Of a DNA stretch of 64,000 nucleotides, positions 12,149-51,351 are shown in pieces. Origin of the DNA: a virus; IMG/VR virus record IMGVR_UViG_3300027244_000194, positions 1 to 64,000 of that record. One strand, 5' to 3'. The position numbers and the translations under genes are program-made. How positions within the stretch are numbered: the stretch's first letter is position 1; every line of letters begins with the position of its first letter. The notes below the pieces were generated by a model, which had not been told where the DNA came from, made no database searches, and saw nothing but the letters and a program-made list of their open reading frames with translations.

Positions 12149-12417
12149 AACGCGTAAAATTGTACGAAGCATTTGTTAATGAAGAAGTATCTTTCTCAAA
12201 GATTAAGAAATCATTGAAAGATGCTGCCTTCCCAGTGACACTAGTAGTTCACGCTAAAGGCGCCCAGGTTGGAGCAGTCATTCATCAGGAAGTAATTAAC
12301 ATTCCCGACGCCGTTCCAGCGAACTGGACAACTCTTAAAAAGCGTTACCCAACGTCCGGTTATCATTTCACACTTGAAGATGCTACCGGTAAAATAGTAT
12401 TTCAAGATAAAATCTAA
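12145..12417 (+). CDS. Small internal head protein candidate with CTS
   Basis: A 90-residue protein starting MKRVKLYEAFVNEE, a clear CTS with a predicted cut after V-N-E. ATG 12145 is chosen over the in-frame ATG at 12136 because it puts the CTS at the N-terminus and gives an ATGA overlap with the upstream stop. The mature domain is a small alpha/beta sequence (TLVVHAKGAQVGAVIHQEV, then SGYHFTLEDATGKIVFQD) of unknown role. Confidence 0.6.
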   Translation: MKRVKLYEAFVNEEVSFSKIKKSLKDAAFPVTLVVHAKGAQVGAVIHQEVINIPDAVPANWTTLKKRYPTSGYHFTLEDATGKIVFQDKI

Positions 12418-13706
12418 TGAAATTATTAACTTATAACCAATTCATCGTTGAAAGAGCAGGTCAAAGCTTGGCCGGCTCTGACCTCGTTTTAGAGGGTGGT
12501 GCTGCTGGTCACATGTCACATCCGTTTGATGACAAAGATCTAACGTTTGGCGACTTTAAAGCCATGATTGAAGCAGGTCTAAAGGGAGAATTGAACTTCG
12601 AAGAAGATCCAACTGAAAAAACAGATGGTCAAAACATCTTTGCAACAGTTAAAGATGGCGTTACAATGTTTGCAAGAAATGCAGGTCAGTTGAAAAACCC
12701 ATTGGACCTTAGTGGAGTTACTTCAATGTTTGCTGATCACCCTTCAGAGGGAGTTCGTAAGACATTTACTATGGCAGCTAATGATTTAGCTTCAGCCCTA
12801 GGCAAATTGAAGTCAGATTCACAAGAAAAATACTTTGACGGCGGTAAGAACTTCATGAATATGGAGTTAATCTTTTCGGGTAACTCTAATGTCATCAATT
12901 ACGATAAAGATGTAATTCAGTTCCACGGAATTAAATACACTGACGGTAACGGAAACATTACTGGTGAGTCTGGTCCTGGAGCAGCTAAAGAGCTTACAAA
13001 GATTCTACAAGACGTTAATGCTCACATTGGTAAAACATTCACGATCATTCCTCCACAGGTTCTTGTTCTGAGAAAGCACCAAGACTTTTCTGCCAAGCTA
13101 CCTTATTTCATGAAGAAGATTGAAGACCTTAAGAATCGTTACAAGCTTTCTGATTCAGACGAGGTTTCACGTTATCATGAAATGTGGTGGAGAGAAGAGA
13201 TCGATGCTTCATTCCCTAACCTTACACAAGACGTAAAAGAAGGTCTTCTTCAGAGATGGGCCTATAACAACAAACAAGGCATGGACTTTAGAGCCATGGC
13301 CAAACTCGTTGACGCTGCAGGTATGGATAAGATCAAGCAATACGATAAGATGGATGCTGGTAAGAAATACAAAGAAAACATTAGACCATTTGAAGATCTT
13401 TTCCTAGAGTTTGGTTCTGAGGTTCTAAAGAATGCTTCAAACTTCTTGGCTGCTTCACCTGATCAGGAAATGCAAAGACTTCACAATCAGATTAGAACAG
13501 AGGCGGGTAAGATTAAGAAAGGCGGAGACGTTAAGCAAATTCAAAAGGTTGAAGCTGAACTTGACAGACTTTCAAGAATTGGTGGAATTGATTCAATCAT
13601 TCCTTCTGAAGGTCTAGTGTTCAAGTATAAGGGTAAAATATATAAGCTAACTGGCACCTTTGCTGCAATCAACCAGCTAATGGGTATTATTAAATACGGA
13701 AGATAA
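12417..13706 (+). CDS. Nucleotidyltransferase/ligase-fold protein with CTS
   Basis: Probable member of the covalent nucleotidyltransferase (DNA/RNA ligase) superfamily. The 429-residue protein begins MKLLTYNQFIVERAG, a CTS with a predicted cut after I-V-E. Motif I is E-K-T-D-G-Q-N near residue 62, with the Lys nucleophile in K-x-D-G, followed by F-A-R-N. A motif III-like N-M-E-L-I-F is near residue 145, and a motif IV/V-like E-G-L-V-F-K-Y followed by Y-K-L-T-G lies near the C-terminus. A helical domain sits between III and IV. Substrate (DNA, RNA or other) cannot be told. The CTS implies it is carried in the head and injected, which would be unusual for a ligase. Confidence 0.6.
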   Translation: MKLLTYNQFIVERAGQSLAGSDLVLEGGAAGHMSHPFDDKDLTFGDFKAMIEAGLKGELNFEEDPTEKTDGQNIFATVKDGVTMFARNAGQLKNPLDLSGVTSMFADHPSEGVRKTFTMAANDLASALGKLKSDSQEKYFDGGKNFMNMELIFSGNSNVINYDKDVIQFHGIKYTDGNGNITGESGPGAAKELTKILQDVNAHIGKTFTIIPPQVLVLRKHQDFSAKLPYFMKKIEDLKNRYKLSDSDEVSRYHEMWWREEIDASFPNLTQDVKEGLLQRWAYNNKQGMDFRAMAKLVDAAGMDKIKQYDKMDAGKKYKENIRPFEDLFLEFGSEVLKNASNFLAASPDQEMQRLHNQIRTEAGKIKKGGDVKQIQKVEAELDRLSRIGGIDSIIPSEGLVFKYKGKIYKLTGTFAAINQLMGIIKYGR

Positions 13707-13708
13707 AA

Positions 13709-15574
13709 ATGGCACTACCTAAACTTAGAGATCACTTCAACGATACGAATCGCGAAAACTTCATGGCAATGTTAACCCAAAAGGTTCACGCTGTTGAGAA
13801 GATCGCTGCTTCATCATTTCACGTCAGAAGAGATGATCTAACCAACAAGTACTACAAATCAGGTTCTGAAAGAGCTATGGATATTGTAGATCGTACTATC
13901 GTTAGATTTTATGAAAATGCTATTCGTCACTTTCAAGGTTTAGGTGATGAAATGAAGAGCGACATGCCGAAGGATTGGAAGTTTGGTTTTGATTATCTGA
14001 TTGAAAATGAAACTCCAAATTTTAAGTACGCTCTTCTTCCTAAGAATAATTTAATTCTAACGCATATCCAGGTTCTTAACGAATCAGGCAGGGTTTCTAA
14101 GGTGATTAGAGACACTGAGGTCCTAAACAAGTGGGCAAAGAAACTTGATGTTCAAAAGCCACCTGTGATCTTCGAAGGCATGCTGACGATGTTCCAGAAG
14201 GAGCAATTGATCAAAATTCTAGAAATGAACGATAATGAATTTGAAAAAGTATACGAAAATCGTTCATTCACCAGAGACATCTATAACATTTTTAATTCAG
14301 GCATGTCTAGAACTGCGCTGAATGAATCAGTTAATGAAGAAATTGATGGTTTAGTTGTTTCGTTTGTTGATGGCAAATCAATGAAGTCTTTCAAGCTAGA
14401 AGATTATAGAAGAAAGAATGAAGAAACAGAAAGAAAGTCTTCTGATGTTTATCAAATCACAATGGTAGACGTTATTGAATACTTCACAAACCATGATTTT
14501 TCACAATACAAACTAGTTGAAGAAAAGAAAGACAGAAGATTTATAGAAATCATGTCTGAATCATTTAACGATTACATTAAGGCTAATGCCGCAAAATATA
14601 TTGGTGTTAAGTTTGAGACAGCTGATTTCGCAAAGAATGAAGCCTTTAATCTAAACACCGCGTTTTTGAAAAACGAACAAACCTTAAAATACGTCAACAA
14701 CCCAATCCTATCTGAGCTTTTCAAAATTGTTTTATCTTCTTTTAGAAATAAAAGAGAGAAGGCAAGTGATATTCTAACCGAGGACATGGTTGCACAGCTA
14801 AACGAGATCATCGATAAGATTTACGAGCAGATTGACGCAAAATTAGAAGAGAACGACGTAATGGACTTTACATCATTTAAGAAGTGGTCTTCAATTCAGG
14901 AAGATGCTCCAGAAGGAGAAGTTAATGAAGCCCTAAAGGTTAAGACCCTAGAACATGGTAAACAAAAAGTAAATATGTTTGTTGGCAGATTCCAACCTTT
15001 TACTCTAGGTCACGCTAAAGTTCTTCAGTCTCTACATGATCAGAACGGCCTACCAGTTGTAGTATTCCTAGTTAAGTCAAAGACGGCTAAAAAGGAAGAT
15101 GCATTCAAAAGACCTTATGACGAGGCAATGCAAATGAAAATGTTTAAGGCAGTTCAAAGGGAATACAAGTTCCTAAAAGATATTATTGTTGTTCCATTCG
15201 CTGCAATTGACGCCCTATTCAATGAGTTAAGACCTAAGTACGAACCAGTCTTATGGGGTACAGGTACAGATAGAATGGCAGCTTACTCTTCACAGGCATA
15301 CAAAGAAACGTACAGAGAACAATTGAACGTTCTACCTGAGTTTGGTATGCATGAAATTCACAGAACAGATGATGACATCTCAGCAACTGCGGTTAGAAAC
15401 GCAATGATGTCCGATAATAAGACAGAGTTTCAAAGAATGACACCAAAGTCACTTCACGGAATGTACCCAGTTCTACAGTCTGAGCTTTTAAAAGCTATGA
15501 CAGCTGCGGAGTCAAAAGTAAATGAAGAATTGATGACCTTTGAACAGTTCATCAACAAGTTTAGCAATGAGTAA
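13709..15574 (+). CDS. Fusion: ligase-fold domain plus NMN adenylyltransferase-like domain
   Basis: A 621-residue two-domain protein. The N-terminal half resembles a nucleotidyltransferase: V-E-K-I-A-A-S-S-F-H-V near residue 30, W-K-F-G-F-D near 91, and D-G-L-V-V with F-K-L-E-D near 212-228. The usual K-x-D-G motif I reads K-I-A-A, so activity is doubtful. The C-terminal part, from about residue 423, is an NMNAT-type cytidylyltransferase-fold domain: F-V-G-R-F-Q-P-F-T-L-G-H (ATP-binding GRFQPxxxGH) and late I-S-A-T-A-V-R (ISxTxxR). It probably makes NAD from NMN and ATP. The extreme C-terminus (ELMTFEQFINKFSNE) looks like a CTS placed at the wrong end. It lies in the head-protein block. Confidence 0.7.
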   Translation: MALPKLRDHFNDTNRENFMAMLTQKVHAVEKIAASSFHVRRDDLTNKYYKSGSERAMDIVDRTIVRFYENAIRHFQGLGDEMKSDMPKDWKFGFDYLIENETPNFKYALLPKNNLILTHIQVLNESGRVSKVIRDTEVLNKWAKKLDVQKPPVIFEGMLTMFQKEQLIKILEMNDNEFEKVYENRSFTRDIYNIFNSGMSRTALNESVNEEIDGLVVSFVDGKSMKSFKLEDYRRKNEETERKSSDVYQITMVDVIEYFTNHDFSQYKLVEEKKDRRFIEIMSESFNDYIKANAAKYIGVKFETADFAKNEAFNLNTAFLKNEQTLKYVNNPILSELFKIVLSSFRNKREKASDILTEDMVAQLNEIIDKIYEQIDAKLEENDVMDFTSFKKWSSIQEDAPEGEVNEALKVKTLEHGKQKVNMFVGRFQPFTLGHAKVLQSLHDQNGLPVVVFLVKSKTAKKEDAFKRPYDEAMQMKMFKAVQREYKFLKDIIVVPFAAIDALFNELRPKYEPVLWGTGTDRMAAYSSQAYKETYREQLNVLPEFGMHEIHRTDDDISATAVRNAMMSDNKTEFQRMTPKSLHGMYPVLQSELLKAMTAAESKVNEELMTFEQFINKFSNE

Positions 15575-16718
15575 TTTAATTAGATCTAATTTTGCAAGAG
15601 AACTTCAGCTGATCAACGAGACTGAAGAATACACAGCATACGGAATTAAGAACCCTGCTCTTACTAAAGCGGTTTCTTCTAAGAAGGCACAATTTGATAA
15701 GTACCTTCAAAACCTACAAAGGACAGGAGGTTCACCTTTTGCCGACATGATTAAGACACTTAATTCCCTGTCAGGTAAGGATCTTGCAATCTTCGTTGAA
15801 GGACTTGGAAAGTATTCGAGCCTTGAGGCCCTACAGCCTAACTATCTTAAAGAAGTTAATTCATCTTCGTTCTCAAATGGTCTATTCAATACGCAATCAA
15901 AGGGTATTGGTCCTGGTGAATTGTGGTTGGCTTGGGTGGTTGATGGTGTTAGAATCTCAGGCGGCGGAGAATCCTTTGACGTAACACACAATGAAAAAGG
16001 ACAATACGAAGTTAAGTCATACGCTGACTCTCATTCTCCATTCAGATTGGGTAATGCAGGTGCAGCTTCTCAATTCGTATGGTTGAGAAAAATGAGACAC
16101 GTTGCCGAAATCACAGAAGAGATTGTTGCAATTCCAGGTCTAAAAGATATGCACCCTGAAATCTTCAATGCAGCTGCGACCGTAAATTCAAGAGGTGAAG
16201 GTAAATCAGCAGCTTCTGATTTTTCTAGAGGTGAAGTATCAAAAGAACTTATTAGCTCTGTGATTGATTTCATTAAGATTGCAAAAGAGCAATTAGCGAA
16301 TAGGTCTACAGGATACGATATCATTGAGGTGAAATCAACTTCACCCGGTAATCCAAACATGTCTTTTATTATCGAACCCGCAAAGGAAGCAGATATTAAA
16401 GCAGGTAAATTTAAGATCATTAAGCAAGTTAATATGGCTGACGTTTCAAACGAAGAAGCACTATACAGAATGCTTGCAAAGAACGAATATGTTAGAGCAG
16501 GCGTTGAATCGCTAGTTAAAGACATCAATGATGGTCTTGCAAATGTTGAAAAGAAATACGCTAAAATGAAATTCGTTGTCTTTAGAAAAGAGGCAATGAA
16601 CATTACTTCAGGGTTGAAGAAGGTTCAAGGAACCGATATTGCATCACAATACGGAGCTGGTAAAGAAGCCATCTTTGGTATGTCAGGAGCCCTACTAAGA
16701 GTAAGAGAAGATGCGTAA
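15567..16718 (+). CDS. PD-(D/E)XK nuclease-like protein in the head-protein block
   Basis: A 383-residue protein. ATG 15567 is preferred over the upstream TTG at 15540 and overlaps the previous gene by 8 nt. The N-terminus (MSNLIRSNFARELQLINETE) has a CTS-like end with L-I-N-E. Near residue 120 there is G-P-G-E-L-W-L-A-W, then S-F-D-V, then Y-E-V-K-S-Y, an E...D-x(8)-E-V-K arrangement typical of PD-(D/E)XK nucleases. The rest is helical and basic. A nuclease entering with the DNA could attack host DNA or counter defence; function is inference. Confidence 0.5.
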   Translation: MSNLIRSNFARELQLINETEEYTAYGIKNPALTKAVSSKKAQFDKYLQNLQRTGGSPFADMIKTLNSLSGKDLAIFVEGLGKYSSLEALQPNYLKEVNSSSFSNGLFNTQSKGIGPGELWLAWVVDGVRISGGGESFDVTHNEKGQYEVKSYADSHSPFRLGNAGAASQFVWLRKMRHVAEITEEIVAIPGLKDMHPEIFNAAATVNSRGEGKSAASDFSRGEVSKELISSVIDFIKIAKEQLANRSTGYDIIEVKSTSPGNPNMSFIIEPAKEADIKAGKFKIIKQVNMADVSNEEALYRMLAKNEYVRAGVESLVKDINDGLANVEKKYAKMKFVVFRKEAMNITSGLKKVQGTDIASQYGAGKEAIFGMSGALLRVREDA

Positions 16719-46200: not shown

Positions 46201-48336
46201 ATGAATCAACATAATCTATTGATCCTTGAGAGATCATCGAATACACTGGACTTCAAATCAGAAGGAGGTTCATACGTACTCGAAGGTATTTTCGGAGAGC
46301 TGGACAAAAAGAATAGAAACAATCGTATCTATACAGCTGAAGAATACTTACCACAAATCGAATCTCTACAGGAGAAAATCAAGTCATCTAAGCTATTAGG
46401 TGAGCTTGATCACCCACAAAAATTTGACATTTCTCTAAGAAACGTTTCACACGTAATCGAGGAACTTCACTACGATCAAGATTCTAAGCAAATCAGAGGT
46501 AGAATCAGACTACTAGACACAGATGCTGGAAAGCAAGCTAAAGCTCTAGTTGATTCTGGCATTCCATTGCACATCTCTTCAAGAGCTGCTGGTGTTGTTG
46601 AATCAGACGGTAAAGTTAAAATCAAGCAACTTTTCACTTACGATCTAGTTGCTGATCCAGGTTTCGAGAACGCTGAACTTGCAAGAGTAAATGAATCTTA
46701 CGGACTAGCTAACGACGATCTAATTCAAATCTATGAAATTGGAGGAGTTGCTACTCTACTTGAAACAGAAACTAAAATCGAAAATAACGATACAAACATC
46801 ATGGAAAACAAAGCTAGATTTATAGCGGTTGAAGATTTCAACAAGTACTCTGCCTACCTTGCTGAAGAGATCAAATCGCTTAAAGAAGCTCTAGCCGCCG
46901 TTTCTACTGAGACTATTGAAGAGAAGATGAAAGCTCTTACAGAGTACGTAGAATACGTTGCTGAAAGAGCTGACAAAGGTATTCAGTACTCTGAGTACGT
47001 TGCAGAAAAATTAGATGGTAACATCGAATACTCTAACTACTTGGCAGAAAAGTTGGACCAAGGAATTGAATACTCTGAGCACATCGCTGAGTCAGTAAAT
47101 AACGTTAAGGATTACGCTAATTATTTGGCAGAATCTTACAACGAAGGTGTTACTACAGGTGAGAATGTTCAAAAGTATCTAAACTACCTAAAAGAAAACA
47201 TCGAGTCAATCTCTGAATACGCTGATTACATTGCTGAAACTATTAATTCTAACCTAATCGTTGAAGAAGAAGGTGAAGGAGCAGCAAAAGATCACGAAGA
47301 AGCAGCAGACAAGAACGAGCTAGAAAACGTTGGTGACAATTCAGCTGAAGGTTCAGTTGATGCAGCTGGTGAAGAAGCTGGTGTTGAAGCTGAAGACCTA
47401 GAGGCTGACACTAAAGAGGTTTACTCTGAAGATGACAAGAAAGAACTTGACGCAGCTGATCAAGACGCACCAGAAGATGAAGGTGAAGAAGCTGCTAAAG
47501 AAGTTGTTGAAGCTGAAGAGTCAGAAGAGACTGAAGAGACTGAAGAAGTCGAAGAAGGAAGAGCTTTCGCTGCTGCAGCTAAAGAAGCTAAAGATAAAGG
47601 TGAGAAAGAATTTGAATTCGACGGTAAGACATACCCTGTAACAGTTAAAGAAGGTGAAGAAGTTGAAGAATCTGCTGAAGGTGCTATCGACGCTGAAGAC
47701 CTAGAAGCTGATATGGACGAAGTTTCTTCTGAAGACGATAAGAAAATCACTAAGCAAGCTGATCAGGAAATTCCATCTGAAGAAGATGCAATCACCGATG
47801 ACGCTCTAGAGTCTTACAAAAGAGAAATCTCTGAGAAGCTTTCTTCTCTAATCAACAAAGCTACTGAAAAGAAGACTAACGATCCTCACTTCTTCAAGTT
47901 TGTATCTGAATCTACTAAGACAAGATTCAACGAACTAGAAGTTGAAGACAGAACTAAAGTTCTTTCAGCAGTTGAAGGTAGAGGTTACCTAACAGAGTCA
48001 CAAATTGTTACTCTAATGGAAGGTGCTCTAGTTGAAGTTGCAGGTCAAACTACTCCTTACTTTGTGGAAGCTGCTCCAGCTGAATACAAAGAGATCTGGA
48101 ATAACCTATCTGAAGCTAAGAGAAATCAATTATCTGCTCAAGCTAAGATGGTGAAGCTTTCTACTCCTTACCAAGTTGCTAACTTCTGGCAAACAAGAGA
48201 TCTAAGAGAAGTTGCTCCAGTTATGGAAAAGCTAACTATGATCACAGAAGCTAAGAAAGAAGAAGCTCCTAAGAAATCTATCGGTTACGATGTAACTGGT
48301 ATTGGCGAAGAAATCGCTAAGAGATTTAAGAAGTAA
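46201..48336 (+). CDS. 21-22: Fused prohead protease gp21 and core scaffold gp22
   Basis: A 711-residue fusion. Residues 1-190 are the gp21 serine protease: L-E-G-I-F-G-E-L-D, N-R-N-N-R-I-Y, L-G-E-L-D-H-P (catalytic His region), and I-S-S-R-A-A-G (catalytic Ser). Then come seven 14-residue helical repeats (46945-47259), a long acidic part with one E-F-E-F-D-G-K-T-Y module, and a gp22-like helical C-terminus. T4 makes gp21 and gp22 from separate genes. An in-frame ATG at 46801 (MENKARFIAVEDF), after L-L-E-T-E, could yield scaffold alone, like lambda C/Nu3. Terminator follows. Confidence 0.8.
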   Translation: MNQHNLLILERSSNTLDFKSEGGSYVLEGIFGELDKKNRNNRIYTAEEYLPQIESLQEKIKSSKLLGELDHPQKFDISLRNVSHVIEELHYDQDSKQIRGRIRLLDTDAGKQAKALVDSGIPLHISSRAAGVVESDGKVKIKQLFTYDLVADPGFENAELARVNESYGLANDDLIQIYEIGGVATLLETETKIENNDTNIMENKARFIAVEDFNKYSAYLAEEIKSLKEALAAVSTETIEEKMKALTEYVEYVAERADKGIQYSEYVAEKLDGNIEYSNYLAEKLDQGIEYSEHIAESVNNVKDYANYLAESYNEGVTTGENVQKYLNYLKENIESISEYADYIAETINSNLIVEEEGEGAAKDHEEAADKNELENVGDNSAEGSVDAAGEEAGVEAEDLEADTKEVYSEDDKKELDAADQDAPEDEGEEAAKEVVEAEESEETEETEEVEEGRAFAAAAKEAKDKGEKEFEFDGKTYPVTVKEGEEVEESAEGAIDAEDLEADMDEVSSEDDKKITKQADQEIPSEEDAITDDALESYKREISEKLSSLINKATEKKTNDPHFFKFVSESTKTRFNELEVEDRTKVLSAVEGRGYLTESQIVTLMEGALVEVAGQTTPYFVEAAPAEYKEIWNNLSEAKRNQLSAQAKMVKLSTPYQVANFWQTRDLREVAPVMEKLTMITEAKKEEAPKKSIGYDVTGIGEEIAKRFKK
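46945..47259 (+). repeat. Seven 14-residue repeats in the scaffold
   Basis: Consensus Y-S-x-Y-[VL]-A-E-K-L-D-x-G-I-E: five in tandem from residue 249, a 7-residue break, then two more. Fourteen residues equal two heptads, so the block is an extended regular coiled coil, suitable for the prohead core. Confidence 0.75.
47554..47652 (+). repeat. E-F-E-F-D-G-K-T-Y module in the scaffold
   Basis: Residues 452-484, matching two modules of the 9948 gene. It is flanked by a roughly 30-residue acidic duplication (A-E-D-L-E-A-D...E-D-D-K-K at both sides). Confidence 0.7.
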
Positions 48337-50136: not shown

Positions 50137-51351
50137 ATGAAATTAAAGATGAAATCTGCGATCAAGCTTTATGAATCTTTCTTAAAGGAAGGTGCTGAAG
50201 CCCCTGCCGCGGCAGAAACAACGTCCGCTACTTCAAGAGAGGCGGTTATTAAAGATGTCGATACTATCATCACATCACTAGAAACTCTAGTTTCTCAAGT
50301 ATCTGAGGAGCTAGAAGAAGAATTCAATACTCCTGAAAAAATTGAAGAAGCCGGCGACGACAACATTATCGTTCAATGGATTACTTCAATGAAAGCCGTT
50401 AAAGCTCAAAAGAAGGTTAATAACATTAAGGTTAATAAAGTTGCTCTTGAGATTGCAAGGGATGAAGCTCCAAACACAGAGCAAAAGAACAAGATCAAAG
50501 ACAGGGAAACCCTTCTTACCAGTCAAATCAAATCTCTACAAGATGCTGTCAATGATAGATTTGCTAACAAAGGAGGTTTAGTAGATAAGAAATTATCAAA
50601 CGCTAAAATTGAAGGAGAGCTAGCAGTTATCAAAGCTCACTCAGGTGCAGGTATTGATAAAAAAGAAGCTGGTGATTTAAAGCAAAGAATGGCCGATCTT
50701 CAAAAAAGATACAAAGAAAATGAAGCTGCTCTAAAAGAGCTTGAACCTTCTGAAGAAGATAAAAAAACAGCTGCGAAATCTGCGCAAGATAAAAAGGATC
50801 AAGAAGCAGCTGCGGCGGCGAAAGCTAAAAAAACATCCAATAATGAACCTCAACAGGAACCTGAACAGGAACCTCAACAGGAACCTCAACAGGAAGAACC
50901 TAGAAAAGACGATAACATGGAGGCAGATATTGCTCAATATGATCAGAATATCAAAGATGAAATGGCAAGAGAAGCTGATCTTAAGAAGAAGCTAAAATCA
51001 GTTGAAGACGAAAAGGCAAAGTCAACCGATCCCGAATCTTTCGACGAAAAGATCATCAATATTAAAGCCGAAATCGATAAGTCTAAACAAGATATTAAAC
51101 AGATGAAAGATGCTAAATCTGCACTGGTTAAAAAGACTGCTACAAAAGAATCATTGATTCTAAGGGCTGAAGAATTGGGTTTAAATGAACTTGCTTCTGA
51201 AATTTCAGAAAAAGAAGAATGGCAACTAAACGGAACACCTTTATATTCCAAGTACGATGCTAAAATTAAAAAGGTAGAATACTCTAATTCTTTAAACGAA
51301 TCACGTTACACTATTAACACAGTTAAAGATAGATTTGCAAAACTAATCTAA
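50137..51351 (+). CDS. Internal head protein candidate with CTS, coiled coils and QEP repeats
   Basis: A 404-residue protein beginning MKLKMKSAIKLYESFLKEGAE. The CTS (K-L-Y-E-S-F-L-K-E before Gly) fits best if translation starts at ATG 50149. The rest is Lys/Glu/Ala-rich coiled coil, broken by a Q-E-P repeat linker near residues 236-256. It probably fills or shapes the prohead core beside the scaffold. Its 3' end overlaps the convergent minus-strand gene by 9 nt. Confidence 0.6.
   Translation: MKLKMKSAIKLYESFLKEGAEAPAAAETTSATSREAVIKDVDTIITSLETLVSQVSEELEEEFNTPEKIEEAGDDNIIVQWITSMKAVKAQKKVNNIKVNKVALEIARDEAPNTEQKNKIKDRETLLTSQIKSLQDAVNDRFANKGGLVDKKLSNAKIEGELAVIKAHSGAGIDKKEAGDLKQRMADLQKRYKENEAALKELEPSEEDKKTAAKSAQDKKDQEAAAAAKAKKTSNNEPQQEPEQEPQQEPQQEEPRKDDNMEADIAQYDQNIKDEMAREADLKKKLKSVEDEKAKSTDPESFDEKIINIKAEIDKSKQDIKQMKDAKSALVKKTATKESLILRAEELGLNELASEISEKEEWQLNGTPLYSKYDAKIKKVEYSNSLNESRYTINTVKDRFAKLI
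50845..50900 (+). repeat. Short tandem repeat, 12-nt unit GAACCTCAACAG
   Basis: About four and a half copies coding for E-P-Q-Q; a replication-slippage-prone linker inside the CTS protein. Confidence 0.7.

Follow-up and report, generated by a model that had tools for sequence, protein, structure and literature searches.

T4 RNA ligase 2 (gp24.1/rnlB) is a two-domain enzyme whose family has a KxxG motif I, and it carries Glu in motif IV and two lysines (KxK) in motif V; RNA ligases of the Rnl1, Rnl5, and Trl1 type combine a ligase core fold with the nucleotidyltransferase motifs; and NadM-type NMNATs, such as those of M. thermautotrophicus and Synechocystis, are marked by GRFQPF..GH and ISxTxxR and can have a Nudix domain as fusion partner. 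What NADases such as Thoeris set free is nicotinamide rather than NMN. Phages are known to encode NAD-reconstitution pathways (PMC12774641), and in one survey NadV is reported to accompany NadM in every phage that had NadM (Iyer et al. 2022, PMC9503650). Jumbo phages are one setting in which Pol-beta NTases associated with RNA ligases have been described (PMC7824862). In T4, cleavage of head proteins falls behind an L/I-x-E sequence, and for Alt there is processing at the C-terminus too (PMC9026906).

We describe here a locus of a T4-like phage in which two ligase folds and an NMNAT are encoded side by side. It lies in the first 64,000 nucleotides of IMG/VR record IMGVR_UViG_3300027244_000194 (the whole stretch of DNA analysed, hereafter the window). 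The central gene, PLN-NM, is open at exactly 13709-15574, starts with ATG, and encodes 621 aa; the stop of LIG, the gene upstream, and the start of PLN-NM are 2 bases apart. The locus comprises:

12417..13706, + strand: LIG, a 429-aa ligase-fold protein with complete motifs (motif alignment, predicted structure)
13709..15574, + strand: PLN-NM, an Rnl2-like ligase-fold domain plus an NMNAT domain, 621 aa (reading frame, Pfam, PHROG, AlphaFold2, fold matches)
13709..14842, + strand: PLN domain, residues 1-378, with a T4 RNA ligase 2-like fold (AlphaFold2 model, Foldseek)
14846..14962, + strand: low-confidence linker at the PLN/NMNAT junction, residues 380-418 (pLDDT < 50 at 380-406)
14963..15508, + strand: NMNAT domain, residues 419-600 (Pfam, PHROG, PDB sequence, fold)
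15540..16718, + strand: NUC, the next gene, with a GIG.GE ... GG ... D ... ExK pattern (annotated from TTG; the ATG at 15567 is likelier)

We consider it close to an even prospect, falling just short of one, that PLN-NM, with its attached NMNAT, makes up one half of an RNA-end-repair module delivered by the virion. No description of a ligase-NMNAT fusion was found in the open literature searched, the coverage of which was limited. The intact KTDG gene LIG, the repeated coupling of ligase folds to NMNATs, the C-terminal tail, and the predicted cut site of PLN-NM, all discussed below, are points that the original prediction for this DNA missed.

That prediction had read 13709-15574 as a degenerate ligase-fold domain joined to an NMNAT, and structure agrees with the N-terminal fold: the AlphaFold2 model of PLN-NM (pLDDT 84.7, built from 46 relatives) finds its best PDB match for PLN in T4 RNA ligase 2 (2hvr, Foldseek E 6.6e-9, 370 columns), and the top three Foldseek rows are all full-length Rnl2 structures (2hvr, 2hvq, 1s68), so that the C-terminal domain of Rnl2 is covered too. 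The VIA list of PLN-NM was filled by rows for the NMNAT domain, and the ligase matches of the model therefore come from Foldseek. Neither the PDB sequence search nor Pfam gave a ligase match to PLN, and the PDB sequence search gave none to LIG, so the ligase nature of both proteins is seen only by structure; neither family has a name in Pfam or PHROGs. Since sequence-profile comparison revealed no relation between PLN and LIG, the two are not recent paralogues. Four motif-like segments can be placed in PLN:

13796..13816, + strand: motif-I slot E30-K31-I-A-A-S-S36 (K31 in 46/46 of the clade; Rnl2/Vibrio-phage alignment)
13982..13999, + strand: motif III-like FGFD95YL (D/E at 95 in 48/51)
14339..14359, + strand: motif IV-like EID213GLVV (D/E at 213 in 46/51)
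14387..14404, + strand: motif V-like SFK229LED, without the second motif-V Lys (K229 in 44/51)

Profile alignment confirms KIAA in place of KxDG at residues 31-34, and K31 aligns with the lysine of 'EKIHG' in T4 Rnl2 and of 'KTDG' in a related Vibrio-phage domain (hhalign E 0.03 and 7e-4, respectively, both modest values from single comparisons). The motif IV/V-like part said to be kept in PLN was likewise found (ID213G and FK229L), together with the motif III-like FGFD95. PLN thus resembles T4 Rnl2 in a predicted fold that spans both Rnl2 domains, in the motif-I lysine, and in an acidic motif III; it differs from T4 Rnl2 in that i) motif I reads KIAA rather than KxxG, the Lys being kept and the Gly replaced; ii) motif IV has Asp rather than Glu; iii) motif V, K229-L-E231, offers one Lys where the KxK of Rnl2 has two; and iv) an NMNAT is fused to it.

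Whether PLN should be called degenerate is another matter. The word goes too far: K31 is present in all 46 members of the PLN-NM clade while its neighbours vary, and this invariance leads us to regard PLN as divergent rather than clearly dead. Two relatives have EKIDGSS and others KIQG, KING, or KLSG, although the D-G pair is mostly lost (G in 12 of the 51 aligned domains). Among those 51 domains, the only ones in which D or N replaces K31 are five remote members, from LR756500 and four megaphage proteins. It is quite possible, if not quite probable, that PLN is a pseudoenzyme, one that would bind RNA or LIG but catalyse no ligase reaction itself, as KIAA, the absent second motif-V lysine, and the D or N of the distant forms would suggest; the constancy of K31, the largely retained acidic residues of motifs III and IV and K229, and the KIDG of two relatives speak against it. 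A pseudoenzyme would be compatible with an RNA-repair module, and on the sequences at hand a divergent enzyme appears to fit about as well. Solo PLN homologs also occur in phages of 634-735 kb (L012-L015), where the motif-I lysine is lost and ED or EN replaces EK; no LIG was found in these four megaphage records.

LIG, by comparison, retains every nucleotidyltransferase superfamily motif (I [KxDG], III, IIIa, IV, and V), and nine of its residues (K68, D70, G71, R87, E150, F169, E398, G399, and K410) are invariant in 46/46 relatives:

12618..12629, + strand: motif I, K68-T-D-G71 (invariant in 46/46)
13602..13655, + strand: motifs IV and V, EG..F ... K410-L-T-G (E398, G399, and K410 invariant in 46/46)

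The LIG model (pLDDT 87.2) belongs to the ligase fold, its 37 best VIA rows being RNA or DNA ligases headed by a Naegleria RNA ligase (Z 9.3), fungal Trl1 (8.6), and T4 Rnl1 (8.3), where Z values of 7 to 9 are middling; Foldseek gave no match at E 0.001 or better, the E value reaching only 4e-3. LIG thus shares its core fold and motifs with Rnl1/Rnl5/Trl1-type ligases, but departs from them in a sizeable helical insertion that precedes motif IV and in a segment near the N-terminus, EGGA.GHM.HPF (window 12492-12533), which is invariant and kept even in NM-LIG fusions. A search of 84,980 cellular genomes with LIG gave only 4 matches, all on MAG contigs that are probably phage.

Searches with the two proteins returned at least 246 and at least 584 related stretches in viral contigs. 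Among 120 distinct loci, i) PLN-NM comes after LIG in 75, ten of which continue with NUC; ii) 17 have an NM-LIG fusion, Microcystis phage Mel-JY01 and a 484-kb phage among them; iii) the order is LIG, PLN, NM as separate genes in 3; and iv) it is LIG, NM, Pol-beta NTase, PLN in 2. Vibrio and Campylobacter phages have an NMNAT fused to a KTDG domain, for which profile comparison shows a relation to PLN in the Vibrio case; 21 records cover most of the query. Xanthomonas phage X1 and Stenotrophomonas phage Moby have a small gene directly before a stand-alone NMNAT, and the X1 protein contains KLDG; neither small protein showed a profile relation to LIG, PLN, or Rnl2. By sequence, NM domains from NM-LIG fusions group separately from all other NM domains, which implies that the coupling of ligase folds to NMNATs probably arose more than once. 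Such repeated coupling is the strongest argument that the ligase and NMNAT activities belong together.

Two of the neighboring genes deserve mention. The NUC pattern is suggestive of a PD-(D/E)xK nuclease; NUC is fused to PLN-NM in L167, and in Vibrio phage pv27 it also lies 3′ of the gene for the KTDG-NMNAT fusion; no phage relative was found by tblastn and no family by Pfam or PHROGs. In L010 (5570-6451), a tagged Pol-beta-like NTase (GSAG...GDIDIAV) has a stand-alone NMNAT on one side and solo PLN on the other.

The second half of PLN-NM carries GRFQPFTLGH at residues 426-435 and ISATAVR at residues 557-563:

14984..15013, + strand: GRFQPFTLGH nucleotide-binding motif (sequence, alignment of relatives)
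15377..15397, + strand: ISATAVR motif (sequence, alignment of relatives)

These motifs had been taken to mark an NMNAT-type domain, and four lines of evidence concur: Pfam CTP_transf_like (6e-9 across PLN-NM residues 423-564), a PHROG cytidyltransferase (1.7e-14), PDB sequence matches to NMNATs only, and a fold match to M. thermautotrophicus NMNAT (1ej2, Z 14.5, 2.7 A across 153 residues). Both [HT]xGH and ISxTxxR are present on a HIGH fold, as in NadM-type enzymes, from which PLN-NM differs in having a ligase-fold partner instead of a Nudix domain. The phosphopantetheine adenylyltransferase fold is nearly tied with NMNAT (Z 13.4 vs 14.5); it is not clear that the NMN-stacking Trp of archaeal NMNATs has been retained (F504 may replace it, but the cross-family alignment shifts there); and the NM-LIG fusions have GRFQPMGxHH, a change at the first residue of the motif. 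All three would suit a HIGH-type domain that, rather than making NAD, acts on another phosphate, such as a 5′-phosphate RNA end or some other small molecule, by adenylylating or de-adenylylating it; we think this very unlikely in view of the exclusively NMNAT matches in the PDB sequence search and the retained ISxTxxR.

What NAD would be for is harder to say. The original prediction saw PLN-NM as an NAD-repair enzyme against NAD-depleting defences, and the phage NadV/Nampt salvage systems do resemble PLN-NM in encoding an NMNAT-type enzyme. However, the search for a Nampt partner elsewhere in the genome detected neither Nampt nor NadV, whether in this record or in nine related ones that share the operon (all possibly incomplete), so that no phage source of NMN is apparent; Nampt/NadV is present in LR756500, X1, Moby, and four megaphages. 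We regard as unlikely, and as weakly supported for PLN-NM, a scheme in which injected NMNAT rebuilds NAD+ after attack by host NADases, with the ligase fold as a carrier or RNA-binding appendage. The NMNAT fold and motifs, the precedent of phage NAD reconstitution, and the NadV of some domain-bearing relatives such as LR756500 all favour it, but host NADases would yield nicotinamide instead of the NMN that the enzyme needs, and the conserved coupling to LIG would go unexplained. Less likely still is a cycle in which LIG or PLN takes AMP from NAD+ rather than ATP, freeing NMN from which the NMNAT and ATP restore NAD+. Such recycling would explain why ligase folds and NMNATs are joined in several arrangements without NadV, and the invariant N-terminal segment of LIG might be counted in its favour; yet among solved structures the nearest folds belong to RNA ligases that use ATP, no LigA-type NAD-binding Ia domain was identified, and the net reaction has no obvious gain over an ATP ligase. 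The NAD could as well serve to supply injected users such as the ADP-ribosyltransferase-like tagged protein described below.

The original prediction also placed the gene among head-targeted proteins, a setting that we corroborate from tags, from a prohead-protease-like site in the linker, and from a head maturation protease gene within the window, which in addition encodes portal, major head protein, and tail sheath. T4-like targeting peptides occur at 13/219 ORF starts of the record but at only 1/938 internal methionines, in a scan that allowed starts up to about 45 residues in. The relevant features of LIG and PLN-NM are:

12417..12452, + strand: LIG N-terminal head-targeting-like tag MKLLTYNQFIVE (such a tag in 73/88 LIG proteins)
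14921..14935, + strand: predicted prohead-protease site V405-N-E407↓A-L409 (conserved linker pattern)
15524..15571, + strand: PLN-NM C-terminal targeting-like tail EELMTFEQFINKFSNE (similar tail in 66/74 PLN-NM, background 10%)

The LIG tag ends at an h-x-E site, as an N-terminal targeting peptide should. PLN-NM has no N-terminal tag, and its C-terminal tail has only distant precedent. The linker pattern [LIVM]-x-E-[AG]-[LFR] is found in 44/46 PLN-NM proteins vs 0.02 expected, where the sequences behind the motif and tag counts given here are related, so that the counts do not represent independent events. In stand-alone NMNATs, the N-terminal tag ends at the matching domain position (FINE↓AVKV vs VNE↓ALKV in PLN-NM); on the simplest reading, the fusion has kept an ancestral cleavage site, and the virion would hold the mature ligase-like and NMNAT enzymes as separate proteins. 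The parallel with the T4 internal head proteins and Alt lies in N-terminal tags, L/I-x-E-like sites, and C-terminal processing in Alt; PLN-NM, as a candidate for packaging, differs in joining two enzymes in one chain, in bearing its targeting-like tail at the C-terminus, and in a cut that is predicted to fall inside the protein. The head maturation protease gene itself (window 46201-48336) is of unusual length, 711 aa, and contains short EYVAEKLDGNIEYSNYLAEKLDQ-type repeats.

For the RNA-repair module that we prefer, the steps might run as follows: i) LIG would be sent into the prohead by its N-terminal tag and PLN-NM by its C-terminal tail; ii) during head maturation the phage protease would cut PLN-NM at [LIVM]-x-E↓A-L, separating the ligase-like domain from the NMNAT; iii) both would be injected with the DNA; iv) LIG would seal RNA broken by host defence nucleases, with the Rnl2-like PLN as a helper or second ligase; and v) the NMNAT would make NAD+ from NMN and ATP, supporting repair or other co-injected users of NAD. 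Catalysis by LIG, PLN, and the NMNAT is presumed from the models, and it is their folds that point to RNA as the putative substrate of LIG and PLN. RNA repair is suggested by the ligase folds; by the PF09414 RNA ligase, which is not recognisable in most relatives with the operon; by the separate DNA ligase that many of them have; by the Pol-beta NTase of some operons; and by tagged kinase-like and PNK-phosphatase-like proteins. Against it stand KIAA, the missing motif-V lysine, the weak Foldseek scores of LIG, a kinase that is not conserved, and a need for NAD that the module does not explain.

We wish to stress that the wider generalization is tentative. It is possible, though we would place it somewhat short of an even chance, that the operon represents a widespread and undescribed module in which RNA-repair ligase folds are combined with an NMNAT, packaged here as a polyprotein and split in the capsid, with both activities available at DNA entry. 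If so, many phages would carry RNA-sealing and NAD-making enzymes into the cell, tying RNA repair to NAD metabolism, a link not described in the literature that could be searched; phages that have an NMNAT and no nicotinamide salvage would have a reason to keep it; and functions would be suggested for two large protein families that are nameless in Pfam and PHROGs.

Several other genes of the record are tagged or NMNAT-like. A tagged P-loop kinase (G000:C1:159497-160240; L029:15497-16240) matches AAA_33 and a PHROG polynucleotide kinase (7e-7), and was not found in eight other records searched; a tagged HAD-like protein (G000:C1:161823-162440; L029:17823-18440) matches a PHROG polynucleotide kinase as well (2e-8), and the two could be a split Pnkp-like end-healing pair. 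Between them, the protein at G000:C1:160240-161439 (L029:16240-17439) starts with MKRVKLFEEF and has an R-S-E-like pattern (LYRGT, SFTP, TEYEIFV); it resembles an ADP-ribosyltransferase, the class of enzyme to which T4 Alt belongs, and had no Pfam, PHROG, or PDB match. A small GNAT acetyltransferase (G000:C1:161436-161759; L029:17436-17759) starts with MKKVKLFEEF and is perhaps head-targeted. For a tagged 404-aa protein in the window (50137-51351), tblastn gave no relative. A tagged DUF5824 protein (G000:C1:162751-163308; L029:18751-19308) matches the C-terminal end of PHROG 3041, the N-terminal end of which is an NMNAT-like domain, and NMNAT-DUF5824 fusions may occur in other phages. Finally, at G000:C1:129179-130063 (L028:5179-6063) an APS-kinase-like gene is followed by a small NMNAT-like gene (GRWQPWHGGH); the two match separate parts of one PHROG 'kinase' family and look like a split fusion.
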